Assembly: GCF_003667345.1 (NCBI RefSeq)
Contig: NZ_RCWF01000012.1
Coordinates: 1-64,000 of the forward strand
Direction: 5' to 3'
From: Poseidonibacter antarcticus
Lineage (GTDB): Bacteria; Campylobacterota; Campylobacteria; Campylobacterales; Arcobacteraceae
DNA: 64,000 nt
The position numbers and the translations under genes are program-made. Below, one piece after another: positions 42,568 through 64,000 of this stretch (positions are counted from its first letter, which is position 1; the number at the start of each line of letters is the position of its first letter). The notes beneath the pieces were generated by a model. The model was not told where the DNA came from, did no database searches, and saw only the letters and a list, made by a program, of their open reading frames with translations.

Positions 42568-43341
42568 TTAATCGTTAAAAAGAATACAATCCATAGCTTG
42601 ATTTCCATACATAAATTCATTATTTAATACTTTAGCTTTTCTACTTTTTGAGGAACCTAAAGTTATAAAAAAAGGTAATAAATGTTCTAAAGTAGGATGA
42701 TTATTATAAACTTCTGGTGCATTTACTAAGTAGTTTGAGAGTGAAGCAGTATCGCCTTCTTCAACTTTTGAAACAATCCAATCTCTAAATTTTTTAGCAT
42801 AAATTTCAACTGGAGCATCTACTTCACGTAGAGAAGCTCTTAAATTATGAGTAAGAGTCCCACTACCAATTACTAATGCTTCATTTCTGAATTCCTGTAA
42901 TACCTCTCCAATATTTATTAATTCTTTTGCACTATAGTAAATTGGTAATGAAATTTGTATAACAGCGATGTTTGCCTCTGGATACATTAAAGATAATGGA
43001 GCCCAAATACCATGATCATATCCTTCATGTTTATCATCTTTTAATATTGAAATATTTCTTTTATTAAACTTTTTTACAATCTCATTAACTTTTCCTAAAT
43101 TATTTTTAATAGGATACTTTTTATCATACAATTTTTTTGGGAAACCATAAAAATCATAAATTATATTTGGATTTGGATTGGTTAAAATTCTTAATTCTTT
43201 TGTTATCCAATGTGCTGAAATTATAATTATGTATTTTGGTCTTTCAAATAATTCTGGTAGCTCTTTCAAAAAAGTTGCTGATTTATATTTACTAAGACAA
43301 AGAGCTGGTGAGCCATGAGATATATATATTGAGGGTAACAT
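42568..43341 (-). CDS. DODA/LigB-type extradiol ring-opening dioxygenase
   Basis: 257 residues. YISHGSPALCL and YIIIISAHWITKELRI carry metal-ligand His residues, followed by IYDFYGFPKKLYDKKYP, EGYDHGIWAPLSLMYPEA and VIGSGTLTHNLR. This is the class III (LigB) fold in the YgiD/4,5-DOPA-dioxygenase branch, cytoplasmic with a single metal. It follows dmpP by 56 nt. Since no DmpB-like catechol 2,3-dioxygenase is in the window, it is the only candidate here for opening the catechol ring. YgiD-type enzymes usually prefer DOPA-like catechols, so this is uncertain. Confidence 0.85.
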   Translation of the reverse strand: MLPSIYISHGSPALCLSKYKSATFLKELPELFERPKYIIIISAHWITKELRILTNPNPNIIYDFYGFPKKLYDKKYPIKNNLGKVNEIVKKFNKRNISILKDDKHEGYDHGIWAPLSLMYPEANIAVIQISLPIYYSAKELINIGEVLQEFRNEALVIGSGTLTHNLRASLREVDAPVEIYAKKFRDWIVSKVEEGDTASLSNYLVNAPEVYNNHPTLEHLLPFFITLGSSKSRKAKVLNNEFMYGNQAMDCILFND

Positions 43342-43397
43342 TTAAATCCTTTTCAAGATGAAAATTTAAAGAATTAAATCTTCATCTTCTTTATATA

Positions 43398-44456
43398 TTA
43401 TATTGACTTAAAAAGTGGACTTCGTATATTATCTTCATGCAAATCTGCCTTTGAAAAAAATTTCTCTGTATGAATATCTTTTTCAAATAATCTACCTTGC
43501 ATAAGTGCTGTAATACAAGCGTCACTCATCATTGGTGGTCCACAAAGATATGCTTTATTACCTGCAAATTGATTATCATATAATTTTTTTGCAACATCAT
43601 TTGTAAAGCCGATTTCTCCTGCCCATTTTTCATTTTTATTATTAGATAAAACAGGAACATACTTGAAGTTTTTATATTTTGTTTCTAAATCTTTAAATAA
43701 ATCAGCATAATAAAGTTCTTCTTCATTTCTTGCCCCATGAAATAATGTGATTGGTAAAGTACATCCATTCTCTAATTCATCTAAAATCATAGATTTTGGG
43801 CTTGAAAGTCCTGAACCTCCAGCAAAGAATATCATTGGTTTTTGAGCACTCTTTTTTACAAAGAATCTTCCAAAAGGACCTGTTATTTTTCTTCTATCTC
43901 CAACTTTTACATTATTATGAATCCATGGTGTTGCTTCACCATCTGGAATAATACCAATATTTAATTCAATAATTTTTCCTGTACTTGGTTGGTTTGCCAA
44001 TGAAAATGCTCGTGGTTCTTTAAAACCAGGAACATGATAGTTAATATATTGTCCAGCTTGAAAATCTAATTCTTCATCAAGTTCTATCCAAAGTCCAAGT
44101 ATTCTAGGTGTTAACATTTCTCTTTTTATAACTGTCCCCATAACATCTTTTACAGGTATTGTTCTTGCATCAACATCGACATCAATATCAGCTTCAATAA
44201 CAACGTCTTCAATTATTGTTGCTGTACAAGCTAAACAATATCCATCCTCTCTCTCGCTTTCCATTAACGCAAAATTTGAGGCATCACCTAAATCAACTTC
44301 ACCTTCTAAAACTTCAACTTTACAAGTGCCACAAAGTCCATGATTACAAGCATGAGGAAGGTAAACTCCTTGACGTAATGCAGCATCAAGAAGGCTTTGC
44401 CCTTCTTGAACATCTACAATATCACCTGTTGGTTCAATTTCTAATTTACAACTCAT
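43398..44456 (-). CDS. dmpP: Phenol hydroxylase reductase component
   Basis: 352 residues. The N-terminal plant-type ferredoxin domain has CNHGLCGTCKVEVLEG and a fourth Cys in CLACT. The FAD domain has FKEPRAFSLAN (RxxS motif) and the NAD domain IFFAGGSGLSSPKSMI and AYLCGPPMMSDACI. It passes electrons from NADH through FAD and [2Fe-2S] to the di-iron oxygenase DmpLNO. One nt separates it from dmpO. Confidence 0.93.
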   Translation of the reverse strand: MSCKLEIEPTGDIVDVQEGQSLLDAALRQGVYLPHACNHGLCGTCKVEVLEGEVDLGDASNFALMESEREDGYCLACTATIIEDVVIEADIDVDVDARTIPVKDVMGTVIKREMLTPRILGLWIELDEELDFQAGQYINYHVPGFKEPRAFSLANQPSTGKIIELNIGIIPDGEATPWIHNNVKVGDRRKITGPFGRFFVKKSAQKPMIFFAGGSGLSSPKSMILDELENGCTLPITLFHGARNEEELYYADLFKDLETKYKNFKYVPVLSNNKNEKWAGEIGFTNDVAKKLYDNQFAGNKAYLCGPPMMSDACITALMQGRLFEKDIHTEKFFSKADLHEDNIRSPLFKSI

Positions 44457-44457
44457 T

Positions 44458-44817
44458 TTATGCTCCTACTCTTCCCGTTAATGAAGGTGTTGTAAATGTT
44501 ATAAAGGACTTATGTCCAACACCATTTTCTTTTAAACTTTTAGAAAAGTCAGGGTTCACAACTTTTCCATCAATTTCCCAAATCACTTCTGTTTTATCAA
44601 AATCTAAGTCAGCAAAATCAGGTTCTATTTTATAAGTTAAAGGAATAATATCTGATATTAAGGCCCCAAAAAGCATATCTGGTGGAAAAGGAAATGCTCT
44701 GGGAGAGCAAACAACTCTATGCCCATACCAATATATGTAAACTAACTGATTTCCATGAAATTTATCTAAACTATCTTTCATTATATTTGGATATTCTCCA
44801 ATTGATTGAATTGCCAT
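44458..44817 (-). CDS. dmpO: Phenol hydroxylase small oxygenase subunit
   Basis: 119 residues. Opening AIQSIGEYPNIMKDSLDKFH and FPFPPDMLFGALISDIIPLT match the DmpO/TomA4 gamma subunit of soluble di-iron phenol hydroxylases. It forms the (LNO)2 oxygenase core. Its place between dmpN and dmpP is the conserved order. Confidence 0.9.
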   Translation of the reverse strand: MAIQSIGEYPNIMKDSLDKFHGNQLVYIYWYGHRVVCSPRAFPFPPDMLFGALISDIIPLTYKIEPDFADLDFDKTEVIWEIDGKVVNPDFSKSLKENGVGHKSFITFTTPSLTGRVGA

Positions 44818-44832
44818 ATCTATTCTCCTTTA

Positions 44833-46347
44833 TTATTTATTTTTTAATTTATTCCACATAGTTTCATCAGGTGAACCTACATAATCCATATTATCTACCC
44901 CATCTTCAAGCTTGTACCATTTTAATACTTCTGGGATTGTAGCACCGCCACAATTTCCTTGGAAAATTTGATGAGGAGGTAACCATGCTTGAATATATTT
45001 TTCAGGTTGCTCTTCAAATATATGTTTACACCCTTTAGAACAAGTATGGAATTTTTGTCCCTTATATTCACTTGTTTCATGAGTATAAACTTCTGGATGT
45101 CCACCCTCAATATCCGTAAATCCTAAAGGAATTTGACAAGTCTGACATACTAAAGGTAATACTTCAGAATAAAATCTTTCACCTTTTTTTTCTAATTCAA
45201 TATATCTTTCAAACATTGGTCTATAATATTTATCAAATGTATCAGGATATTTTTCACTTAACCAGTTCATTTTAGTTTCATCTGGCATCCATGTATGGAA
45301 TGCAGATGCATTAGTATGATTATAAAAAATATTCCATACTTGATGAGATAAGTGTCCTTTTTCTGCAACAATTGTATCAATAAATTCTTGTGGAACTTTA
45401 ATTCCATATTTCTCTAAATCTTTGTATAAAGCCATACAGTTTTGTTCAATATATAATTCAACTGATTCGCCCCATGAAGTTGGAGAATTTGGTAACATAT
45501 AATCCATCATCATAGATACTAAACCTAATAATCGATATCCTCTCCATAACCATTTATCCATCCATTTTTGAACAATTGGTACATTACCAGCATCTTGTTC
45601 TAACATAAATTTAATAGCAGAAAGACCTAATGTCATATGTCTAGCTTCATCACTTTGTGCAGAGAACCCAAATGTTACAGTAGCCATATCGCCATTATAA
45701 GCAGCTCCACTCATAAATGGTACAAATAATAAACTTGTAAGTACAAATTCAAAAGAAAATGAAATAGCAGTTAAATATTCAAAAGGTCCTGCTGTACTTG
45801 CATCATCACCAAATGACTTAGGAACTGATAAATACCAAACTCTATCATGTGCAGTACTATAATCATGAAATCCATCAAAATATTTATTATAATGACTCAT
45901 TGTATGAACTTGAGTTTGGAAGTGTCTTAATTCATCTATGGCCTGCATTTGACAAGCAATTGAAGCACCCTCTCCTTTAAATGCTCTTGCGGCATGAGAG
46001 AATCCTTGAACAACCTTATACTCCAATGGAGTAATACCAGTTATAAATAACTTTAGTGCATTAACATATCTTCCATCAGAAATATTTTTTTGTCCATTAT
46101 TTTGTGCGAAAGCATCAATAATCGAATAAAGTTTTTTATCTTTTTCTGCTTGTAATTTCCAGTATGAATCCATAGTCATTCTAAATGGATCTTCCCAATC
46201 TTCCCAATCATGAATTTTAATACCTTCCATTTCTAAATATGGGAAGACATCTTCTTCTTTTTGATATGTTGGATCCCATCCAAGTCTAGTCATATATTTA
46301 TATGATTCTTTTTTATTTAATCTCTTTTTTCTTTGGTTTGCACTCAT
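44833..46347 (-). CDS. dmpN: Phenol hydroxylase large oxygenase subunit (di-iron)
   Basis: 504 residues, about full length. The two ExxH di-iron ligand motifs are DELRHFQTQVH near residue 143 and SDEARHMTLG near residue 237, with the additional Glu ligands in KGEGASIACQ and FEFVLTSLLF-type helices. LGWDPTYQKEEDVFPYLEME is the conserved N-terminus. A Cys-rich YHS-like end (CQTCQIPLGFTD, FHTCSKGCKHIFEE) binds zinc in the family. It hydroxylates phenol to catechol using O2. Confidence 0.95.
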   Translation of the reverse strand: MSANQRKKRLNKKESYKYMTRLGWDPTYQKEEDVFPYLEMEGIKIHDWEDWEDPFRMTMDSYWKLQAEKDKKLYSIIDAFAQNNGQKNISDGRYVNALKLFITGITPLEYKVVQGFSHAARAFKGEGASIACQMQAIDELRHFQTQVHTMSHYNKYFDGFHDYSTAHDRVWYLSVPKSFGDDASTAGPFEYLTAISFSFEFVLTSLLFVPFMSGAAYNGDMATVTFGFSAQSDEARHMTLGLSAIKFMLEQDAGNVPIVQKWMDKWLWRGYRLLGLVSMMMDYMLPNSPTSWGESVELYIEQNCMALYKDLEKYGIKVPQEFIDTIVAEKGHLSHQVWNIFYNHTNASAFHTWMPDETKMNWLSEKYPDTFDKYYRPMFERYIELEKKGERFYSEVLPLVCQTCQIPLGFTDIEGGHPEVYTHETSEYKGQKFHTCSKGCKHIFEEQPEKYIQAWLPPHQIFQGNCGGATIPEVLKWYKLEDGVDNMDYVGSPDETMWNKLKNK

Positions 46348-46364
46348 AATATTTCCTTTTATTA

Positions 46365-46640
46365 TTAATTATTCCAATAAATTATAAATTCATCATCTGT
46401 TTCATCAATCTGACCACCTATAGATATAAGAACTAATTGTAGTTCTTCAGGATCCCAATCTCTTCCTAATACTTCTGATACAGTTGAAGCTTTTACTGTA
46501 ATACGTTCAGGTCTTTCAATTTGTATCATTGCGGGTTTATTTGTAATTACTACCCCCTCATTATCTTCTCTAATTGCTTCTGCAATTGCTCTTCCATCTT
46601 CTGTAGCTTGAATATTTAATAACGCTATGCTTTCTGACAT
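46365..46640 (-). CDS. dmpM: Phenol hydroxylase effector (coupling) protein
   Basis: 91 residues. ATEDGRAIAEAIREDNEGVV and MIQIERPERITVKA with VSEVLGRDWDPEELQLVLIS match the cofactor-less MmoB/DmpM family, which binds the oxygenase and tunes its active site. Its position between dmpL and dmpN is conserved. Confidence 0.93.
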   Translation of the reverse strand: MSESIALLNIQATEDGRAIAEAIREDNEGVVITNKPAMIQIERPERITVKASTVSEVLGRDWDPEELQLVLISIGGQIDETDDEFIIYWNN

Positions 46641-46669: not shown

Positions 46670-47662
46670 TTATAAATTCAATCCAGAATTATTCAATCTT
46701 TCAACTAATTCTGTTTTAGAAGAATTAATTAATTCTTCTGAATTATCAGAAAATGAAACCAATGTTTTCATTGAATTCTCCATAATCTCAATATCTTCTT
46801 TTACCCATTGTGTTAATAGTTCCTTATTTTCAGTAGATTCAAGAGCCATTATTTTTATAATATTATTCAGCCATTTAGCTGTTTCTTCATACCATGATGT
46901 AATAAACTCACTCAACATTGGAAGTACCATTTCTTCATGTTCAGCCATATATTTTGAAAATTCATTGATCATTAAAGGGATTACAAAACCATCGAAAACA
47001 ATATTTTGTTTTACAAATAATCTAATTGGATCTTTTACAACTAGAGAATCTTCAACAGCTTTTCTTAATGCTTGCCATTTAGGATCGTTTAACCAAGCAT
47101 CTTTACCTTCATCTAATTTTTTAACATCATTATTTCCTAATAGTAAAATGATTTTAGTTATATGTTGAGCCATCCCTAATCTATCTTCAGCATGAAATAA
47201 ACAAGCCGAAGCCATTGCTGTACCATAAACTCTATCAACAATCGTTAGATTATTCATATTCCCACCATATTCATAATGTCTAAGGGGTGTTAAAAAATCA
47301 AATACTTTTTGTAAATTTTCTTTTTTTATAAAATTAACTAAACCTCGTTTATCAATAAATTCAAGACTTTGATCATTAGCTGCATTTTGTGTAGCTCGAG
47401 TCGACACATAAGACATATAATGAAATTTTCTTGGATCCAATAAATCATACCAATCATTCATTTTTATTTCAGTTCTATTTTTATCATAAATCTCAAACTC
47501 TGGTTCCCATTGTGGTCTATAATGAAAATTCTCTGTTGGTTGTGCATCATACATAGCTTCTTCATATCTTGAAGCTGGTCTATCTTCTCCTAACCTTTTA
47601 GCGACATGATTAAAAGTATGTCTCTTTGGTTCAATTTCAACACTTGCTATATTTAATTCCAT
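46670..47662 (-). CDS. dmpL: Phenol hydroxylase beta oxygenase subunit
   Basis: 330 residues. KRHTFNHVAKRLGEDRPASR, EGTQ-type helices replaced by MNDWYDLLDPRKFHYMSYVS, and LTPLRHYEYGGNMNNL are the conserved parts of the DmpL/TomA1 beta subunit. It has the ferritin-like fold without di-iron ligands and stabilises the DmpN active subunit. Confidence 0.92.
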   Translation of the reverse strand: MELNIASVEIEPKRHTFNHVAKRLGEDRPASRYEEAMYDAQPTENFHYRPQWEPEFEIYDKNRTEIKMNDWYDLLDPRKFHYMSYVSTRATQNAANDQSLEFIDKRGLVNFIKKENLQKVFDFLTPLRHYEYGGNMNNLTIVDRVYGTAMASACLFHAEDRLGMAQHITKIILLLGNNDVKKLDEGKDAWLNDPKWQALRKAVEDSLVVKDPIRLFVKQNIVFDGFVIPLMINEFSKYMAEHEEMVLPMLSEFITSWYEETAKWLNNIIKIMALESTENKELLTQWVKEDIEIMENSMKTLVSFSDNSEELINSSKTELVERLNNSGLNL

Positions 47663-47677
47663 ATTTTCTCCTTAATT

Positions 47678-47911
47678 TTAATTTAATCCGTATTTCCAAT
47701 TTTTGTCATCTATTAATATCTCATCTTCTTGTTCTTTAGTAAAAAAAGATACTCTATTATTTTGACAAAATTCAATAAAAGCTTTGTATGGTAAAAGTAA
47801 TTCAACATTCATTACCGCTTCACCTACTGCAAAATTAAATTCTACAAATCCATCATTTCTTAATTCTATGATTTGTACAAATTTTTTTTGGTCTGGCATT
47901 AATTCATGCAT
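47678..47911 (-). CDS. dmpK: Phenol hydroxylase assembly protein
   Basis: About 77 residues from ATG 47911, with GGGAG 7 nt before it; the in-frame ATG 47938 would add nine residues and lacks a ribosome binding site. KKFVQIIELRNDGFVEFNFA and LLLPYKAFIEFCQNN match DmpK, which helps insert iron into the oxygenase. First gene of the operon, it lies behind a response-regulator-like direct repeat and -10 element. Confidence 0.85.
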   Translation of the reverse strand: MHELMPDQKKFVQIIELRNDGFVEFNFAVGEAVMNVELLLPYKAFIEFCQNNRVSFFTKEQEDEILIDDKNWKYGLN

Positions 47912-47942
47912 ACGTAAACTCCCTTTTAATTTAAACAAGTGA

Positions 47943-48030: not shown

Positions 48031-49335
48031 ATGATTGAATTATTAAAAAACTTTAAAAATAAAATACTTAATAAAAATAAATTAGCAAAAAGATTCTCTT
48101 TGACTTATGTAATAATTGGAGTCTTAGGAGCAGTATTTCTTGATAAACTAATTAGAATTTTTTTTGAATATAATAGTTTTTCACAGCAAGGACCTTTAAC
48201 TTTTGGTATTTTATTTGTTATATCAACAGCTACAATTCTTTATTTAATGATTAATCATATGCAAAAAGTAATCAAAAGAATAGAAACCTCATACAAAGAG
48301 TTAAAAAGAAAAGATAAGGATAGATTACTTCCTTATGAGTTTGCACTAGATAACTCAGTTGATGCAATTTATTGGTTTACTTTAGATAGTAAATTTGTAT
48401 ATGTAAATAACGCAGCTTGTACTATGCTTGGTTATACGAAAGAAGAAATGCTTAATATGTATTTAGAAGATATGGATCCAACTTTTAATAGAAATACAGC
48501 CCAAAATACAATGCTGCAAATAAAGAATTGTAAAAACTGGTCAATAGAAACAATGCAGAGAAAAAAAGATGGGAATATCATTAATATAGAGGTTTCAGGA
48601 CATGGATTTAGGCATGGAGGAGAAGTTTTTATTTGTGCCTTTGGAAGAGATATTACACCTAGAATTGCATATAGAAAAAAAATTACTGATATGAACCAAA
48701 AGTTACAGAAATCAGTAGATGAAAAAGAAATTCTTCTTAAAGAAATTCATCATAGAGTTAAAAATAATATGGAAATCATTTCATCTTTATTAACAATGCA
48801 ATATAGAAGAGTACACGATGAAGAAATAAAATATATTTTAAAACAAAGTCGTAGTAGAATCAACACTATGGCATTAGTTCATGAATTTTTATACCTAGGA
48901 GAAAATTTAGCTTATATAAATATTGAAGATTATATAGAAAGACTAATTGAAGATATAAGAGAACTTTATATTTCAAACAATACTTATCTAGAAGTAGATT
49001 TAAATATAGATAAACTTATATTTTCTACAAATAGATGTATTCAAGTGGGAATGGTATTACATGAACTTTGTGTAAATTCACTAAAATATGCATTTAATAA
49101 AAATAGAGATAATCTACTTTGTATTCATATAAAAAAATCTACTGAAATGATTCATCTTAAAATTAGAGACAATGGAAAAGGCCTAGATGATATGCACTCA
49201 TTATATAAAACTGATTCTATTGGAATGCAACTAATTCACTCCATTGTAGAAGACCAATTAGATGGGGAAATAAAATTTAAAAATAATAACGGATTAGAGT
49301 GTAATATCTTTTTTCCATTAAAGGAAGAAGAATGA
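48031..49335 (+). CDS. PAS-domain sensor histidine kinase (HisKA_2 type)
   Basis: 434 residues. Two membrane helices near 22-40 and 58-78 with a very short periplasmic loop, a coiled linker, then a PAS domain about 105-215 (DNSVDAIYWFTLDSKFVYVN). EKEILLKEIHHRVKNNMEII near residue 240 is the HisKA_2 phosphoacceptor box. GMVLHELCVNSLKYAFNKNR and IRDNGKGL belong to the HWE/HisKA_2-type ATPase. Since little is periplasmic, the PAS domain probably senses a cytoplasmic or membrane ligand, perhaps an aromatic. The response regulator gene overlaps by 4 nt. Confidence 0.88.
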   Translation: MIELLKNFKNKILNKNKLAKRFSLTYVIIGVLGAVFLDKLIRIFFEYNSFSQQGPLTFGILFVISTATILYLMINHMQKVIKRIETSYKELKRKDKDRLLPYEFALDNSVDAIYWFTLDSKFVYVNNAACTMLGYTKEEMLNMYLEDMDPTFNRNTAQNTMLQIKNCKNWSIETMQRKKDGNIINIEVSGHGFRHGGEVFICAFGRDITPRIAYRKKITDMNQKLQKSVDEKEILLKEIHHRVKNNMEIISSLLTMQYRRVHDEEIKYILKQSRSRINTMALVHEFLYLGENLAYINIEDYIERLIEDIRELYISNNTYLEVDLNIDKLIFSTNRCIQVGMVLHELCVNSLKYAFNKNRDNLLCIHIKKSTEMIHLKIRDNGKGLDDMHSLYKTDSIGMQLIHSIVEDQLDGEIKFKNNNGLECNIFFPLKEEE

Positions 49336-50090
49336 ATAAAACAAAAATTTTAATAGTTGAAGATGAATCTATAATTGCAATGAACTTAAAAGAGACATTA
49401 TTAGAATTGGGATATGAATCTTGTGGAATAGCTCCTAATAGATGTAAGACAATAAAGATTCTTGAAAGAGGTGTTTTACCAGATTTAATATTAATGGATA
49501 TTTATTTAAAAGGTCCCACAACAGGAATTGAGATAGCAAAAGAATTAAAAGTTATACTCCCTCATGTCCCTGTAGTATTTCTTACTGCAAATTCAGAGGT
49601 GGCTACAATAAAAAAAGCTTCAGAAACATTAGCTTATGGTTATATACTAAAACCTTATAAAAAAAGTCATTTACATGCAACAATAGAAGTTGCCCTAGAA
49701 AAATCAAAAAATGACAATAAAAAAAGTAATGAATTAAATGCAATTGAAAATATTAATAAAACTCTTACTCATCAATTAGAAATCACTAGAGAACAAAAAT
49801 CAAGAACAGTCAAATTAAAGTATGGTTATCTATTTGATAAAGAAAAAGAAATTTTGTATTATGGAGATTTACCTATAAAACTAACAAAAAAAGAATCACA
49901 AATTATAAAAATACTTTGTAATAGTGCTGGGTTTTATGTATCTCAAGAACAATTAGAATATGCAATCTGGCAAGATGAACCAGCTGGATATGCAGCATTT
50001 AGATCAATTCTTTTTAGACTAAGAAATAAGTTACATAAAGATCTAATTACAACTCAAAGTAATACAGGTTATAAAATAGAGATTATTTAA
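49332..50090 (+). CDS. OmpR-type response regulator of the phenol cluster
   Basis: 252 residues. The receiver domain has KILIVEDESIIAMNLKETL, the phospho-Asp in DLILMDIYL, Thr in VVFLTAN and Lys in ILKPYKK. After a helical linker (about 130-160) a winged helix follows: LPIKLTKKESQIIKILCNSA and AFRSILFRLRNKL with NTGYKIEII. OmpR-type proteins bind tandem half-sites 10-11 bp apart, exactly the spacing of GCGATA boxes in three promoters of this cluster. It replaces the DmpR/XylR-type activator known from Pseudomonas. Confidence 0.88.
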   Translation: MNKTKILIVEDESIIAMNLKETLLELGYESCGIAPNRCKTIKILERGVLPDLILMDIYLKGPTTGIEIAKELKVILPHVPVVFLTANSEVATIKKASETLAYGYILKPYKKSHLHATIEVALEKSKNDNKKSNELNAIENINKTLTHQLEITREQKSRTVKLKYGYLFDKEKEILYYGDLPIKLTKKESQIIKILCNSAGFYVSQEQLEYAIWQDEPAGYAAFRSILFRLRNKLHKDLITTQSNTGYKIEII

Positions 50091-50360: not shown

Positions 50361-51158
50361 ATGGACTTGAAAATAGAAAATAAAATAGCATTAGTTACAG
50401 GAGCAACACAAGGTATAGGATTTGCAACTGCTAAAAAACTTTGTGAAGAAAAAGCGAATGTAATAATCAATGGAAGAAATAAAGAAAAGTTAGATAATGC
50501 GATAAATAAAATTAAAAAAGATGTCCCCAATGCAAAAATCGCTAGTATTGTAGCTGATTTAAAAGATAATGAAGGTTGTAATTATTTAATATCTAAAATT
50601 CCACATATTGATATTTTAATTAATAATTTAGGAATGTTCGAAGCAAAAAGTTTTGAAGAGATCACAGAAGAAGAATGGCTTCAAATGTTTAACGTAAATG
50701 TAATGAGTGGAGTTAGACTTTCTCAACATTATTTATCAAAAATGCTTGAACAAAACTGGGGAAGAATCATTTTTGTTTCAAGTGAATCTGCACTTAATAT
50801 TCCAAAAGAAATGATTCATTATGGTATGACTAAGACTGCTCAAGTGTCTATAGCTCATGGGATAGCTCAACTTACTCAAGGAACAAATGTAACTTCAAAT
50901 TCTATTATAGTTGGACCTTCAAAATCTGAAGGAGTAATGAAATTTTTGGATGAAATAGGAAAAGAAGAAAATAAAACATTTAAAGAGCTTGAAAAAGAAT
51001 TTTTTGAAATACATAGACCAACTTCACTTACAAAAAGATTCGCAGAAGTTGAAGAGACAGCAAATATGATCGTCTATGCAGCTAGCAGTTTATCTTCTAC
51101 TACAAATGGTGCCATGTTAAGAGCTGACGGTGGAATTATTAATTCTGCATTTAATTAA
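50361..51158 (+). CDS. Short-chain dehydrogenase/reductase
   Basis: 265 residues. IALVTGATQGIGFATAKKLC is the nucleotide loop, INGRNKEKL suggests NADP(H) by its Arg, ILINNLGMFEAKSF is the NNxG motif, and the active site is Ser in VSSESALN with HYGMTKTA giving YxxxK. It sits behind the shared regulatory box with a LeuB-like dehydrogenase 12 nt downstream. A role in side reactions of aromatic breakdown is likely, but no substrate can be named. Confidence 0.82.
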   Translation: MDLKIENKIALVTGATQGIGFATAKKLCEEKANVIINGRNKEKLDNAINKIKKDVPNAKIASIVADLKDNEGCNYLISKIPHIDILINNLGMFEAKSFEEITEEEWLQMFNVNVMSGVRLSQHYLSKMLEQNWGRIIFVSSESALNIPKEMIHYGMTKTAQVSIAHGIAQLTQGTNVTSNSIIVGPSKSEGVMKFLDEIGKEENKTFKELEKEFFEIHRPTSLTKRFAEVEETANMIVYAASSLSSTTNGAMLRADGGIINSAFN

Positions 51159-51170
51159 AAAGGTAAATTA

Positions 51171-52235
51171 ATGAAAAAATATATTATCTCTATTATTAAA
51201 GGTGATGGAATTGGTCCAGAAATTGTGAATGAAGCTATAAAAGTTCTAAATACTGTTTCTAAAACTTGTGGTTTTTCTTTAGAATATAAAGAGTATTTAA
51301 TGGGAGGAATTGCAATTGATAAAACAGGTATTCCTTTACCTAATAAAACAGTAAAAGGAGTATTAAATTCAGATGCTTGTTTATTAGGCGCAATTGGTGG
51401 AGAGAAATGGGATAATTTACCAAATGAATTAAAGCCTGAACGTGGTCTTCTTAAATTTAGAGAAGAGATGGATGTTTATGCTAACTTACGACCTGTACTT
51501 ATTTATGATGAATTAGTAAATGCTTCAACATTAAAGCCTGAAGTAATTGAAGGTGTTGACATTATGATTGTACGTGAACTTCTTGGATGTATTTATTTTG
51601 GACAACCAAGAGAAAATGATGGAACAAAAGCATTTAATACAATGGCTTACACTAAACCAGAGATTATAAGAATTGGTAAAAAAGCATTTGAATTAGCTAT
51701 GGAAAGAGATAAAAGACTTTGCTCTGTTGATAAGGCAAATGTACTTGAGGTTTCTCAATTATGGAGAAGTACTATGGAAGAATTATCGTTAGACTATCCA
51801 GAAGTTAAACTCTCACATATGTACGTTGATAATGCTGCAATGCAACTTGTAAGAAATCCAAAACAGTTTGATGTAATAGTTACAGGAAATATATTTGGAG
51901 ATATTCTATCTGATACTGCATCTATGGTTGTGGGTTCTATTGGACTTCTTCCCTCTGCTTCAATAGGTAATAAAATAGCTGTATATGAACCAATTCATGG
52001 ATCAGCTCCTGATATTGCAGGGATGGGAATTGCCAACCCAATTGCAACTATTGAATCTGCTGGAATGATGTTGAGATATTCTCTTGGAGAAATTGAAGCT
52101 GCCAATAAAATAAATTATGCAATAAAAAAAGCCCTAAAAGACGGATACAGAACAAAAGATTTAGCAGCATTTGATGCTAAAAAAGTTGTTTCTACTTCAG
52201 AAATGGGCGATATTATTTCTAATAATACGAAATAA
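51171..52235 (+). CDS. LeuB-like beta-decarboxylating dehydrogenase
   Basis: 354 residues of the isocitrate/isopropylmalate dehydrogenase family. [40 protein letters not shown] and [16 protein letters not shown] are as in LeuB, as are [20 protein letters not shown] and the NAD-binding [18 protein letters not shown]. LeuC, LeuD and LeuA are not nearby, and it is co-oriented with an SDR in a phenol-regulated transcript. It may act on a 3-substituted malate or tartrate-like acid rather than in leucine synthesis. Confidence 0.8.
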
Positions 52236-54697: not shown

Positions 54698-55571
54698 TTA
54701 TAATAAAAAATATAACACAGCAGGAATTGATACAATACTAAATAATGTTCCCACTGCAACAATAGAAGCTACGACACTAGAATCATGACCATATTGTTCT
54801 GCCATAATTGCATTAACAACAGCAGGAGGTAAGCTACCAAAAAGAATAAGTAAACTAATTTGCATTGGCGTATAATCAAAAATTGATATTACACCTAAGG
54901 CTATTAAAATTCCAGATAGAGGGCAAAGTATAGCTCCAATTAGTCCTATTTTCCAATGAGTAAAATCTACAAAAGTTAGTCTTACACCCAAAGCAAATAA
55001 AACAAGAGGAATAGATACTTGGGATAACATTTGAGTAGGTGTCAAAAGTATTGCAGGTAAATGTAGATTAAAATAATTAAAAAGTAAGCCAAAAATTGTT
55101 GCAATTATAACAGGACTTTTAAATAAATTAAGAAGCTTTGCTTCTCCCCCCATACATCATAACAGCAATTGTGAATTGTCCTATTACTTGCACTAAAGAT
55201 AAAGCAACCATCATTGCCATAGCCTCTTCTCCAAATGCAAATAATGCTAAGGGAAGTCCTAAATTTATGGAATTAGAAAACATCATTGAAGGTAAAAAAG
55301 TACGAGGATTTATATCCAATAATTTACTAACTGGATAAAGTATAAGTCCCGAACCAAGTATCACAATCAAGGCGCCTATAGAAAAAGTTCCTAAAACTGT
55401 TATTGAAGGTAACTTCTCACTTATTGCATAAAAAACTAATATTGGAATAAAAAAATCCATATTAATTTTATTTGTTACATCCATATTTATCTTTGTTTTT
55501 TTAGCGTAGAAATATCCTAGAAGTGCAATTATTAATACGGGAAATATGATTTCTACTATTTTTAATATCAT
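54698..55571 (-). pseudogene. AEC-family transporter, split by a frameshift at a G6 run
   Basis: Two frames, 55571-55128 and 55153-54698, together give about 290 residues with ten hydrophobic helices: KIVEIIFPVLIIALLGYFYA at the start and FGSLPPAVVNAIMAEQYGHD near the end, the signature of auxin efflux carrier-type permeases. They overlap at GGGGGG (minus strand, plus-strand C6 at 55146-55151). With five G the frame reads MMYGGEAKLLNLFKSPV throughout. The gene may be dead, phase-variable or hit by a sequencing error. It would transport an organic acid. Confidence 0.8.
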
Positions 55572-56554: not shown

Positions 56555-57379
56555 TTAACTTTCTTCACTAAAAAAATTCATTAACAGAGTATTAAATCTT
56601 TTATTATGTTCAATTTGTGTCCAATGTCCACATTCACCAAAGATATGGAGTTGTGATTTCTTTATTAATTGATTTAATCTTATCGAATTTTGAACAGGAA
56701 TAACTTTATCTTCTCTACCATGTATAATCAAAGTTTCTTTGTCAATTTTTTTAATATCGTTTTCATCACTTTCCATTGAATCAACACCATCTTGTCTTGG
56801 AGCTTTAAACATAGAAGAAAATGATTCTTGAAAACCTGGTCTTATACTTGCTTCATATCTCATCTTTGCTAAATCATCTGTAACTATACTTCTGTCATTT
56901 GCAAAAATATCTAATAATTCTTTCATATTTTCTATACTTGGTGTATATCCCCATGCTTTGTCTAAACCATAAGTTAGGTCAAAGTAAACACCAACAGCAC
57001 CCATTAAAACAATTTTATTAAATCTTTCAGGATATTTAATTACTAAAGCTAATGCCAATGCACCACCAAAAGAATTTCCTACAAGATTAATTTTTTCAAT
57101 TCCTAAAGCATCCATTAAATCAATAGTCTGAGCAACCCAAGTATCCATATCATATGAAATTCCTTCAGGTCTATCTGAATAACCAAACCCAACCATATCA
57201 GGTGCTATTACTCTAAATTTTTCTGCTAATGCTGGCATACATAATCGCCAGTTTGCAAAAGCTGATACTCCTGGACCTGAACCATGAATAAACATAATTG
57301 GTTCACCTTCACCCAAGTCATGATAATTTGTATTAAAATTACCTGTTTTTATTCTATTTGCTATTTCTGGATTAGACAT
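56555..57379 (-). CDS. dmpD: 2-hydroxymuconic semialdehyde hydrolase
   Basis: 274 residues. FIHGSGPGVSAFANWRLCMP provides the oxyanion hole, NLVGNSFGGALALALV the nucleophile Ser, LIIHGREDKVIPVQN the Asp and FGECGHWTQIEHNKRF the His. These are as in DmpD/XylF, which hydrolyse the ring-cleavage product of (methyl)catechols to 2-oxopent-4-enoate and formate or acetate. It gives the cluster the hydrolytic branch besides the dmpC/I/H branch. Confidence 0.88.
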   Translation of the reverse strand: MSNPEIANRIKTGNFNTNYHDLGEGEPIMFIHGSGPGVSAFANWRLCMPALAEKFRVIAPDMVGFGYSDRPEGISYDMDTWVAQTIDLMDALGIEKINLVGNSFGGALALALVIKYPERFNKIVLMGAVGVYFDLTYGLDKAWGYTPSIENMKELLDIFANDRSIVTDDLAKMRYEASIRPGFQESFSSMFKAPRQDGVDSMESDENDIKKIDKETLIIHGREDKVIPVQNSIRLNQLIKKSQLHIFGECGHWTQIEHNKRFNTLLMNFFSEES

Positions 57380-58423: not shown

Positions 58424-58615
58424 CTATCTTCCCATCTTTTTGACACTTTGTCCAGCTATTCCAAAATGTTGTTTTGGCATTTCATTTAATATTACTCTAA
58501 TTGTTGGAATAGGAGCATCTATTGCTTCATGAATAGCTTGAGTAACTTTTGCTATAAGCTCTTCTTTTTTCTCATCAGATCTTCCTTCAACTATATTTAT
58601 TGTTGCAATTGGCAT
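58424..58615 (-). CDS. dmpI: 4-oxalocrotonate tautomerase
   Basis: 63 residues. After removal of Met the N-terminal Pro is the catalytic base (PIATINIVEGRSDEKKEELI), and the Arg residues near positions 11 and 39 (TIRVILNE) match the family. It converts 2-hydroxymuconate to 4-oxalocrotonate. AAGGAAATAAA is its ribosome binding site. Confidence 0.9.
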   Translation of the reverse strand: MPIATINIVEGRSDEKKEELIAKVTQAIHEAIDAPIPTIRVILNEMPKQHFGIAGQSVKKMGR

Positions 58616-58677: not shown

Positions 58678-59466
58678 TTAAATAAATTTCATAGATAATG
58701 TACCTAAATCTTGGAATTTAACTGTAACATTATCACCTTTTTTTACACTCATAGCAGCTGTCATTGCACCTGATAGAATATATGAACCTGCTTTTAAAGT
58801 TTCACCTCGTTCAGCCATCATATTTGCAAGCATTGCAATAGAAGTTGCAGGATGTCCTAAAACAGCAGCTCCAGCTCCTAATTGAACAATTTCTCCATTT
58901 ATTTCCATAACTACACCAAGTGTTTTAAGATCAAGATCTTTAATATTTTTCATTCTTCCACCAGTAACATATCTTGAAGATGAAGAATTATCTGCGATTA
59001 CTGATTTTAAATCAAATTTAAAATCTTTGTATCTTGAATCAATAATTTCAACTGCAGGCATTACAAAATCTGTTGCAGCTAAAACATCACCAATATGACA
59101 GCCAGGTCCTGATAAATCATCTTTTAAAACAAAAGCTATTTCAGCTTCTACTTTTGGATGAATAAGTTCATCAATTTTAATTTCAGCTCCATCACCAAAG
59201 CTAAAGTAATCAGCTAAATAACCATAACAAGGATTAGGAACACCCATTTGTTTCATTTTAGCTTGAGAAGTAAGACCCATTTTCATACCAACAATTTTAT
59301 GTCCTCTTTTCTCTTTTGCAGCTCGTGCAGTCCATTGAATGTCATACGCATCTTCATATGTCATTTCAGGATAATCATCAGTTATTTTAGTAATTTCTTT
59401 TGCATTTAATTCAGCATCTTCACAATGCTTTGCTAGTTTTTCAATTGTTACTTTATCTAATGCCAT
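58678..59466 (-). CDS. dmpH: 4-oxalocrotonate decarboxylase
   Basis: 262 residues from ATG 59466, which shares its A with the dmpG stop (TAATG); an upstream start is not needed. HKIVGMKMGLTSQAKMKQMG and PKVEAEIAFVLKDDLSGPG with PAVEIIDSRYKDFKF match DmpH. It decarboxylates 4-oxalocrotonate to 2-oxopent-4-enoate in complex with the hydratase DmpE, which it resembles in sequence. Confidence 0.9.
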   Translation of the reverse strand: MALDKVTIEKLAKHCEDAELNAKEITKITDDYPEMTYEDAYDIQWTARAAKEKRGHKIVGMKMGLTSQAKMKQMGVPNPCYGYLADYFSFGDGAEIKIDELIHPKVEAEIAFVLKDDLSGPGCHIGDVLAATDFVMPAVEIIDSRYKDFKFDLKSVIADNSSSSRYVTGGRMKNIKDLDLKTLGVVMEINGEIVQLGAGAAVLGHPATSIAMLANMMAERGETLKAGSYILSGAMTAAMSVKKGDNVTVKFQDLGTLSMKFI

Positions 59467-60494
59467 TATATTAATCCTTTTGCTCTTGCCATTTCCATAG
59501 CACAATCATCAATCATATCTTCTTGACCACCAATCATACCTCTACGTCCAAGTTCAACTAACAATGTTCTTGCATCAATTCCATATTTAGCTTCTGCTCT
59601 TCTTGCAAAAAGTAAAAATGAAGAATAAACACCTGCATATCCCAAAGTTAAAGAATCTCTTGAAATTCTTGTAGGTTTTCCCATAATAGGAAGTGCTATA
59701 TCTTCAGCAGCATCCTCAATCATATCTAAGTCAACTCCAGTTTCAACACCCATTCTATTACAAACAGCTACTAAAACTTCTGTTGCAGTATTTCCAGAAC
59801 CTGCTCCAAATCCTGCTAAGCTTGCATCAATTCTAGTTGCCCCTGCTTCTATTGCAGCCAATGAATTAGATACACCCATAGACATATTATTATGACCATG
59901 GAATCCAATCTCAATTTCATTTCCAAACTCTTTTTTAAGAGCTTTAATTCTTGCACTTACCATATCAGGAAGTAAATAACCTGCTGAATCAGTTGCATAA
60001 ATACAATTAGCTCCATAAGAAACCATTTTTCTAGCTTCTTCTACTATTCTTTTTTCATCAACCATGTGTGCCATCATTAAAAAACCAACAGTATCAAGTT
60101 TCATTTTTACTGCTGCTTTTATATGTTGTGCTGAACAATCAGCTTCAGTACAATGTGTTGCAACTCTAACTGTTGTAATTCCATGTTCTACAGCACGTTC
60201 TAAATCTTTTACTATTCCAATTCCAGGAAGTAAAAGTGCTGAAATCTTAGCTTGAGTCATATTTGGAACAACTGCATCTAACCACTCTTCATCTGTATGT
60301 AAGCCATATCCATAATTTAATGAACTTCCACCAAGACCATCTCCATGAGTTACTTCAATCATAGGAACGCCAGCTTTATCCATTGCAGTTGACATTGCAG
60401 TCATTTGATCAAGTGTAAACTGATGTCTAACTGAATGCATTCCATCTCTTAAAGACATATCATGTATTGTAATTTTTTTACCTTTTAAATCCAT
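59466..60494 (-). CDS. dmpG: 4-hydroxy-2-oxovalerate aldolase
   Basis: 342 residues. [20 protein letters not shown] is the HMGL-like start with the catalytic Arg-Asp pair, [20 protein letters not shown] the metal His-x-His, and [20 protein letters not shown] the C-terminal signature. It cleaves 4-hydroxy-2-oxovalerate to pyruvate and acetaldehyde, channelled to DmpF. The 2-nt spacing to dmpF supports their complex. Confidence 0.95.
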
Positions 60495-60496
60495 CT

Positions 60497-61384
60497 TTAA
60501 ACTCCTGCTTTAATTTTTTCAGCCATTTGTTCTGCAATATTAGTAGCAGCTGCTGTTATAATGTCAAGGTTACCTGCATATTTTGGTAAATAATCACCTA
60601 AACCTTCAACCTCTAACCAAATTGAAATTTTATTTCCATCAAAAACTGGTCCATTTTTAAGTTTATATCCAGGAACGAATTGTTGAACCTCTTTAAGCAT
60701 TTTATGTACAGATTCTGTTATAGCTTCTTCATCTGGCGCTTCACTAGTTTGACAATGAATTGTATCTCTCATCATAAGTGGTGGCTCAGCAGGGTTTAGA
60801 ATAATAATTGCCTTACCTTTCTTAGCACCCCCTACAACTTCAATTCCAAGTTTTGTAGTTTCTGTAAACTCATCAATATTTGCTCTAGTTCCTGGTCCTG
60901 CCGATTTTGATGCAGCTGTTGCAATAATCTCTGCATATTCGACTTCTTGAACTCTTGAAACTGCAGCAATCATAGGAATAGTAGCTTGACCACCACAAGT
61001 TACCATATTCACATTTTGAGCATCTTTTTCTAATAACTCTTCCATATTAACAGATGGCACACAAAATGGTCCAATAGCAGCTGGTGTTAAATCAATAACT
61101 TTTACTCCAAGTTCAGCTAATTTTCTATTATTTTCTCCATGAACATATGCTGAAGTTGCATCAAATGCAATTTTTACACCATCTTCTTTTATAAAAGGTA
61201 ATAATCCATCAACTCCCTCATAAGTAGTTTTCATTCCTGCTTCTTCAGCTTTTTTTAATCCATCAGAATCAGGATCAATTCCTACCATCCATAGTGGATT
61301 TAAAATTTCACTTCTTTGTAATTTAAACATTAAATCTGTTCCAATATTCCCAGATCCAATTAATGCACAATTTATTTTTTCCAT
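60497..61384 (-). CDS. dmpF: Acylating acetaldehyde dehydrogenase
   Basis: 295 residues. [20 protein letters not shown] is the NAD loop, [20 protein letters not shown] contains the catalytic Cys, and [18 protein letters not shown] is conserved. It converts acetaldehyde and CoA to acetyl-CoA in a channelling complex with DmpG. Confidence 0.95.
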
Positions 61385-61396
61385 CTGTAATCCTTT

Positions 61397-62191
61397 TTAT
61401 ACAAATCTACAAGAAGCAGAACCAATTCCACCAATATTTATAGTCATATTATCACCTGCTTTGATAGTTACCATTGCGCATAAAGCACCTGACAATATAA
61501 CCTCTCCAGCTTTTAATCCAACACCAAATTCACCTAATTTATTCGCAAGCCAAACAACAGCATTTACAGGACTCCCAAGTGCTGCTGCACCTGCTCCTGT
61601 ATGTAATAATTCACCATTGCATTCTAAAGTAATTCCACAAGTTGTTAAATCTACATCTCTTGGATCAACTGCATTTCCACCAAATACAATATATCCACAA
61701 GAAGCGTTATCGGCAACTGTATCTTGAATTTTTATTTTCCAATCATTAATTCTTGAATCAACAATTTCAAAACAAGGCATTACAAATTTTGTTGCTTTTA
61801 AAACGTCAGCAGTTGTAACTCCTGGACCTTGTAAATCCTCTTTTAAAACAAAAGCTATTTCACCTTCAGCTTTTGGCTGAATCATTTCATCACTTACATT
61901 AATTTCATCTCCATCAGAATAAATCATGTCAGATAAAAGGTAACCAAAGTCTGGTTGATGAACACCTAACATATCCATTACAACTTTTGATGTTACACCT
62001 ATTTTTTTACCAATTATTTTTGATCCATCATCTTTCATTCTTCTTGCTAAAAGATGATGCTGAATTGCATATGCATCTTCAATTGTTGAATCAGTTTCTC
62101 TTGAAGAAATTGGTTCAATTGAATAATTGCCTTTTAAAGCTTCATATAATTCATTTCCATATTTTTCTATTTTTTCATTTGTCATTGCCAT
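61397..62191 (-). CDS. dmpE: 2-oxopent-4-enoate hydratase
   Basis: 264 residues from ATG 62191, with AAGGA 7 nt before; a TTG 15 nt upstream is unlikely. KIIGKKIGVTSKVVMDMLGV, HQPDFGYLLSDMIYSDG and IVDSRINDWKIKIQDTVADN are nearly as in DmpE. It adds water to 2-oxopent-4-enoate to give 4-hydroxy-2-oxovalerate. It resembles DmpH, but the IGKKIG and HQPDFGYL segments identify it as the hydratase. Confidence 0.92.
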   Translation of the reverse strand: MAMTNEKIEKYGNELYEALKGNYSIEPISSRETDSTIEDAYAIQHHLLARRMKDDGSKIIGKKIGVTSKVVMDMLGVHQPDFGYLLSDMIYSDGDEINVSDEMIQPKAEGEIAFVLKEDLQGPGVTTADVLKATKFVMPCFEIVDSRINDWKIKIQDTVADNASCGYIVFGGNAVDPRDVDLTTCGITLECNGELLHTGAGAAALGSPVNAVVWLANKLGEFGVGLKAGEVILSGALCAMVTIKAGDNMTINIGGIGSASCRFV

Positions 62192-62209
62192 AAAATTATC
62201 CTTCAATCA

Positions 62210-63667
62210 TTACATTTTTATACAAACATTTTTAAGTTCTGTGTAGAATTCAAGTGAATGATGTCCACCTTCTCTACCAATTCCTGAGCCTTTCATTCCA
62301 CCAAATGGTGTTCTTAAATCTCTTAAGAACCATGAATTAACCCATACAATCCCTGTATCAATTTGTGATGCAACTCTATGAGCTCTATCTAAATTTTCTG
62401 TAAATATTGTAGAAGCCAATCCATATTTTGTATCATTCGCCATTTTTATAACTTCGTCTTCTGTATCAAAAGGAGCAATATGACAACAAGGTCCAAATAC
62501 TTCTTCTTTTACAACAGTTGCAGTTTCAGGAAGTCCTGTCCAAATAGTAGGTTCAACAAAGAATCCATTTGCTAATTTACCATCCATTTTAGGAGCACCT
62601 CCACCTAAAATAACATTTGCACCCTCTTTTTTTGCAATATTATAAAAATCTAAAACTTTATCTCTATGCACAGCACTTACAACAGGTCCCATATCAACAG
62701 ATTCATCATTTTGAACACCAACTTTTAATTTAGAACCAGCTTCTTTTAATCTATTTACAAATTCATCAAAAATTGGTCTTTCTACATAAACTCTTTCAGT
62801 TCCTAAACAAACTTGTCCTGAGTTTGCAAATACTGATCTTGCTGTCTCAGAAATTGCTTTTTCCATGTCACAATCTGCAAAAATAATAGCTGGATTTTTT
62901 CCACCTAATTCTAAGGAAACATCTCTAACTCCTTTAGAACAAGCATCCATAATCATTTCACCTGTTTTTGTCTCACCTGTAAATGTGATTGCATCAATAT
63001 CTTTATGAGCAGTAATTAAATTTCCAGTAATTGAACCTTTTCCTTGAACAACATTATAAGCCCCAGCTGGAACTCCAACTTTACTCATAACCTCACCTAA
63101 AAGAGATGTTGTAGTTGGAGTTACTTGAGATGGTTTTACTACAACTGTATTTCCACAAGCCATAGCAGGACCAACTTTCCATGTCATAAGTAATAAAGGT
63201 AAATTCCAAGGAGAAATAACTCCAATTACACCTTTAGGTTTTCTCATAGAATAATTAAGCATTTTTTTACCATCAGGAGTATCAGATCTATAAGCTTCAT
63301 CTGCAACACTTTTCATCGTATCCGCAAATACTTTGAAATTTGCAGCTCCCCTTGGAATATCAATATGTCTAGCAATTGAGTATGGTTTTCCTGTATCTAA
63401 ACATTCTGCTTCTAAAAAATCATCAAATCTTCTATCTATCTCATTTGCTATTTCATACATCATAGCTATTCTATCATTTAGCTTCATTTGACCCCACTCA
63501 CCTGTAAGAGCAGCCTTCGCAGCTGCTATTGCAGCATTTACTTCAGGCTCTCTCCCTAAAGCTACTTTAGAAATAAGTTCAGCAGTTGCTGGGTTATAAT
63601 TATCAAAAAACTCACCACATTGTGAGTCCATAAATTTTCCATTAATATAGTGTTGTACTTTTTTCAT
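62210..63667 (-). CDS. dmpC: 2-hydroxymuconic semialdehyde dehydrogenase
   Basis: 485 residues of the aldehyde dehydrogenase superfamily. VISPWNLPLLLMTWKVGPAM, the active-site Glu in LELGGKNPAIIFAD and the Cys in NSGQVCLGTERVYVE are complete; GFFVEPTIWTGLPETATVVK is also conserved. It oxidises 2-hydroxymuconic semialdehyde to 2-hydroxymuconate with NAD. The start shares one nt with the stop of the HbpS-like gene. Confidence 0.93.
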   Translation of the reverse strand: MKKVQHYINGKFMDSQCGEFFDNYNPATAELISKVALGREPEVNAAIAAAKAALTGEWGQMKLNDRIAMMYEIANEIDRRFDDFLEAECLDTGKPYSIARHIDIPRGAANFKVFADTMKSVADEAYRSDTPDGKKMLNYSMRKPKGVIGVISPWNLPLLLMTWKVGPAMACGNTVVVKPSQVTPTTTSLLGEVMSKVGVPAGAYNVVQGKGSITGNLITAHKDIDAITFTGETKTGEMIMDACSKGVRDVSLELGGKNPAIIFADCDMEKAISETARSVFANSGQVCLGTERVYVERPIFDEFVNRLKEAGSKLKVGVQNDESVDMGPVVSAVHRDKVLDFYNIAKKEGANVILGGGAPKMDGKLANGFFVEPTIWTGLPETATVVKEEVFGPCCHIAPFDTEDEVIKMANDTKYGLASTIFTENLDRAHRVASQIDTGIVWVNSWFLRDLRTPFGGMKGSGIGREGGHHSLEFYTELKNVCIKM

Positions 63668-64000
63668 TATTTTAATCCTATCTTTTCAATCGCATATTTT
63701 GCACAAATAATATCTTCATCTTCTGTTCCACCTGAAACACCAATAGCTCCAATTTTTACATCATCATCAAAAATTACAAGACCTCCACCAAAAGGTATTA
63801 ATCTATCTCTATTAGAAAATCCTTGTTCTAAATGAGGATTCTCTTTAAAGATTTCTATCCATTGATTTGATGGAAATCCAAAACTAGCACTAGTATAAGC
63901 TTTATCTTTTGCAATATTAATTGAATGTATAAAAGAATCTTCCATTCTTAAAAATGCCATTTCTAAACCTTTATTATCAACAACACTTACATTTATGGCA
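63667..64000 (-). CDS. GlcG/HbpS-family protein, 5' end beyond the window
   Basis: At least 111 residues; the frame stays open to the right edge. AINVSVVDNKGLEMAFLRME and KDKAYTSASFGFPSNQ with IPFGGGLVIFDDDVKIGAIG and VSGGTEDEDIICAKYAIEKI are as in GlcG/HbpS (DUF336), small haem- or cobalamin-binding proteins often found in aromatic catabolism operons. The Met at 63960 is internal. More operon genes presumably lie to the right. Confidence 0.85.
   Translation of the reverse strand, partial: AINVSVVDNKGLEMAFLRMEDSFIHSINIAKDKAYTSASFGFPSNQWIEIFKENPHLEQGFSNRDRLIPFGGGLVIFDDDVKIGAIGVSGGTEDEDIICAKYAIEKIGLK

Follow-up and report, generated by a model that had tools for sequence, protein, structure and literature searches.

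The window analysed here, which is the whole stretch of bases 1-64,000 of a 77,523-base contig (C12) of Poseidonibacter antarcticus, encodes phenol hydroxylase and the downstream enzymes of catechol meta cleavage, and the question it raises is which enzyme opens the catechol ring in between. The gene behind the phenol hydroxylase reductase encodes a class III dioxygenase of the YgiD type, unrelated to the canonical catechol 2,3-dioxygenase DmpB. The original prediction was that this enzyme opens catechol in place of DmpB, or alternatively that dmpB follows beyond the right end of the window. I have therefore read the contig past base 64,000, where features are given in the same contig numbering, and compared the locus with 104 genomes of the family Arcobacteraceae, among them that of the window.

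Results

All pathway genes in the window lie on the minus strand, and the predicted set, phenol hydroxylase together with the downstream meta-cleavage enzymes, was indeed recovered. The hydroxylase is encoded by a dmpK-like subunit gene (47678..47938, assigned by position and by its homologue in the Arcobacter cloacae plasmid pACLO), dmpL (46670..47662), dmpM for the effector protein (46365..46640), dmpN for the large subunit (44833..46347), dmpO for the P4 subunit (44458..44817, assigned by gene order and an annotated homologue in pACLO) and dmpP for the reductase (43398..44456). A sensor kinase and a response regulator (48031..50090, plus strand) diverge from this operon, and they are conserved beside it, also in pACLO and in the genomes G099 and G034. 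Adjoining these regulators, here and in pACLO, are an SDR gene and a leuB-like gene (50361-52235), which are unusual partners for a phenol cluster. An auxin-efflux-type carrier at 54698-55571 (minus strand) is found in two overlapping frames that break at a run of six Gs, and this may reflect a frameshift, a sequencing error or a slipping tract. The second part of the pathway consists of a dmpD-like hydrolase gene (56555..57379), dmpI for a 4-oxalocrotonate tautomerase-like protein of 63 aa (58424..58615, which escaped the first listing of open reading frames with its larger size limit), dmpH (58678..59505), dmpG, dmpF and dmpE (59466..62206), and dmpC for 2-hydroxymuconic semialdehyde dehydrogenase (62210..63667, TIGR03216).

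The next gene, for an HbpS-like protein, is cut by the window edge (63667..64000, minus strand, with the gene start at contig position 64095), and directly upstream of it, overlapping it by one base, is dmpB (64095-65039, minus strand), preceded in turn by a dmpQ-like ferredoxin gene (65062-65370, minus strand). The alternative that dmpB is located beyond 64,000 is hereby borne out. The encoded DmpB scores 400 bits against the catechol 2,3-dioxygenase profile TIGR03211, above the equivalog cut-off of 320.2, its best match among solved structures is a catechol 2,3-dioxygenase (E 1e-121), and the class I residues H150, H201, H214/H215, H247, Y256 and E266 are present as judged by motif. That dmpB is absent was correct for the window, but not for the organism: the window ends 95 bp before the gene, and its absence is an effect of the window edge. 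The other glyoxalase-family matches are short, with frames of only 160 and 163 aa, and make poor candidates for a further enzyme of the DmpB type. Ortho cleavage was considered and rejected, as the genome shows no match to the intradiol dioxygenase family (PF00775). Further to the right of the dmp cluster (66583-72951, or L091 584-6952) I found genes for a DnaB-like helicase, a Rep3-type initiator, and ParB-like and ParA-like proteins, and contig C12 is therefore probably part of a plasmid, like pACLO in A. cloacae; the two contig ends show no exact overlap that would close a circle.

The dioxygenase gene behind dmpP (42568..43341, minus strand; LigB hereafter) follows on the same strand, 56 bp downstream of the dmpP stop codon. 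Its product of 257 aa matches the Pfam LigB family (PF02900) with 87.5 bits (E 1.1e-24; curated cut-off 26.3), in agreement with the predicted class III affiliation, and shows no match to TIGR03211 or the vicinal-oxygen-chelate family. Its best NCBIfam match is PRK10628, the 4,5-DOPA-extradiol-dioxygenase, and as the 140.6 bits stay below the equivalog cut-off of 233, the protein is related to, but outside, the strict E. coli-type equivalog. A search of solved structures gave four matches, headed by BvDOD (8in2, E 5e-36) and YgiD (2pw6). The AlphaFold model, built from an alignment of 30 sequences (pLDDT 96.4), has the class III fold: it aligns with BvDOD over 254 residues at 1.6 A (Z 37.4), with MjDOD (9j2l) at Z 36.0, with YgiD over 239 residues at Z 30.5 and with LigAB at Z 22.8. 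The active site of BvDOD consists of the metal-binding histidines H15, H53 and H229 and the catalytic histidines H119 and H175 (PMC11926856). All five have counterparts in LigB, where H9, H44 and H220 are the predicted metal ligands and H110 and H165 the predicted catalytic residues, and all are invariant across the alignment of 30. The pocket residues of BvDOD are not kept: T17 is replaced by S11, D254 by M244, and Y260 is unaligned. From the profile match, the fold shared with BvDOD and YgiD and the invariant mapped histidines it follows that this is a real gene with a full-length product, which, as far as sequence and model tell, is probably an active enzyme.

In the 56 bp between dmpP and LigB (43342..43397, minus strand) a 15-bp hairpin without a U-run is predicted. 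Hairpins of 11-15 bp are predicted before each of the three operon-linked LigB genes (in the window and in the corresponding gaps of L092 and L093), with shuffle z-scores from -2.7 to -5.0, and several clusters without LigB have a terminator-like hairpin with a U-run after dmpP. As judged by folding, the hairpin before the linked LigB genes may lower the expression of the distal gene.

Of the 104 genomes in the family sample, 24 encode DmpN, and DmpB is found in precisely these. LigB relatives are present in 59 of the 104, though only three of the 24 dmp genomes have LigB behind dmpP (G000, which is the genome of the window, G034 and G099), and DmpB is encoded in all three. In G099 the genes form one run, dmpKLMNOP-LigB-QB. 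The dmpN gene of G034 (L093 15825-17340) seems to contain an in-frame TAA early on. A TauE/SafE gene lies near dmpP in 10 clusters, including that of G034, where it comes after LigB; in five clusters dmpQ is the next gene, and in the rest the slot is taken by other genes. In six of the 24 no LigB match turned up (G041, G042, G059, G065, G067 and G096, the last being an incomplete assembly, 86%). A tie between the mere presence of LigB and the dmp operon was considered and rejected, as 18 of 24 genomes with the operon against 41 of 80 without it is not significant (Fisher p = 0.059) and is confounded by kinship. Among the best 80 named loci elsewhere, only L121 has LigB in a dmp operon, and this may be the same locus as that of G099. 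A scan of genome contigs with a single protein as query gave no match.

In the tree the LigB proteins of the three dmp operons group together as a single clade (support 99/98); in this tree a start-codon rule shortened the rows of G099 to 139 residues and of G087, another row, to 241. The clade spans three species of two genera, and its other members are about 71% identical to the protein of the window over the full length, which lends the group further support. At all 27 other LigB loci fetched from the family, a MarR gene, a YceI gene or both lie beside LigB. The genome of the window also has such a chromosomal paralogue (C5:96932, with YceI and MarR neighbours by Pfam), which is 36% identical to the LigB in the phenol operon. 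This MarR-YceI-LigB group is conserved across the Arcobacteraceae (for instance in L008 3833-5694 and its relatives), I found no paper describing it in a literature search, and a few loci in named genomes beyond this family likewise have YceI-like genes near LigB.

Discussion

On balance I consider it probable that an ordinary DmpB opens catechol in this organism, and that LigB is an accessory paralogue recruited behind dmpP, probably for diphenols that DmpB handles badly. In the proposed scheme phenol would be converted to catechol by DmpKLMNOP, catechol would be opened by the DmpB encoded just beyond the window, and DmpC, D, E, F, G, H and I would complete the meta pathway. In the dmp system, DmpQ keeps DmpB active. 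The LigB paralogue would have been recruited to its place after dmpP, in the simplest case by a single event within the Arcobacteraceae, and its product, presumably Fe(II)-dependent and using O2, would open other diphenols, most likely substituted or side-product catechols, or quinols and catechols that would otherwise oxidise to quinones. By cleaving poor substrates of DmpB it could protect or broaden the pathway; this protective role, like its substrate and its co-expression with dmpP, I infer, while the gene, its fold and active-site residues, the presence of DmpB and the single clade of linked copies are read from the sequence. In E. coli, hydroquinone induces ygiD via YhaJ, and the regulon has been proposed to serve quinol degradation (PMC5031710). 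The suggestion of a quinol-directed, detoxifying role for LigB is carried over from this regulation by analogy. The accessory reading is weakened by the hairpin between dmpP and LigB, by the restriction of the association to three genomes and by the differences from the pocket residues of BvDOD.

A more specific version, that in a few Arcobacteraceae the YgiD-type enzyme has become a dedicated part of the operon for phenol meta cleavage, acting on substituted catechols or quinols beyond the reach of DmpB, I put forward tentatively, at slightly less than an even chance. If true, one operon system would hold two unrelated ring-cleaving enzymes. For YgiD-like proteins of bacteria no physiological substrate has been firmly established, and a phenol operon with a known diphenol product could offer a concrete set of substrates for them.

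It is unlikely that LigB instead duplicates the function of DmpB, as a redundant catechol 2,3-dioxygenase working on catechol itself alongside it. Its gene directly follows those of the catechol-producing enzyme, its active site is intact, and the structures matching its fold are those of class III enzymes which open catechol-type or aminophenol rings; however, every family genome with the operon has DmpB, 21 of these 24 do without a linked LigB, and close structural relatives have been characterised on L-DOPA (PMC11926856). Rather improbable, too, is a neutral relocation, in which LigB would keep the general function of its chromosomal, MarR/YceI-adjoining relatives. The paralogue in the same genome and the variable content of the slot behind dmpP fit such a move, but the linked copies have been kept as a single clade in three species and two genera although they are only 71% identical, a pattern that favours their having been retained together with the operon. 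That LigB replaces DmpB is almost certainly wrong, as a canonical dmpB directly upstream of the HbpS-like gene is one of the two findings named beforehand as speaking against this substitution, which is left without support once the contig is read past 64,000, and in pACLO this pathway includes a gene annotated as catechol 2,3-dioxygenase. This disposes of a false lead, since the pathway can do without an unusual catechol dioxygenase. LigB is best read as an accessory paralogue, its family and its ordinary operon both being known already; what remains is the smaller question of what keeps a YgiD-type enzyme in three related phenol operons.

Comparison with known systems

In the literature searched, no paper dealt with the phenol hydroxylase of Arcobacter, and the closest counterparts of the cluster are the dmp operon of the type found in Pseudomonas sp. 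CF600 and pACLO. The window contig has the dmpKLMNOP, Q, B, C, E, F, G, H, I and D set in common with them, and beside its cluster pACLO likewise carries sensor kinase, response regulator, SDR and leuB genes of the kinds found here. It differs in the extra LigB behind dmpP, where pACLO has TauE/SafE, and in that roughly 21 kb separate the Q-B block from the P-LigB block; in pACLO the catechol 2,3-dioxygenase is annotated in the same cluster. With the YgiD/plant DODA family (BvDOD, MjDOD and YgiD) the protein shares the fold over its whole length and the three metal-binding and two catalytic histidines. However, it is only 24-31% identical to these enzymes, has methionine for D254 of the L-DOPA pocket, and is encoded in a phenol operon. 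The chromosomal LigB proteins of the Arcobacteraceae belong to the same family and keep the active-site histidines, whereas they differ from the operon-linked copies in clade and in gene context.
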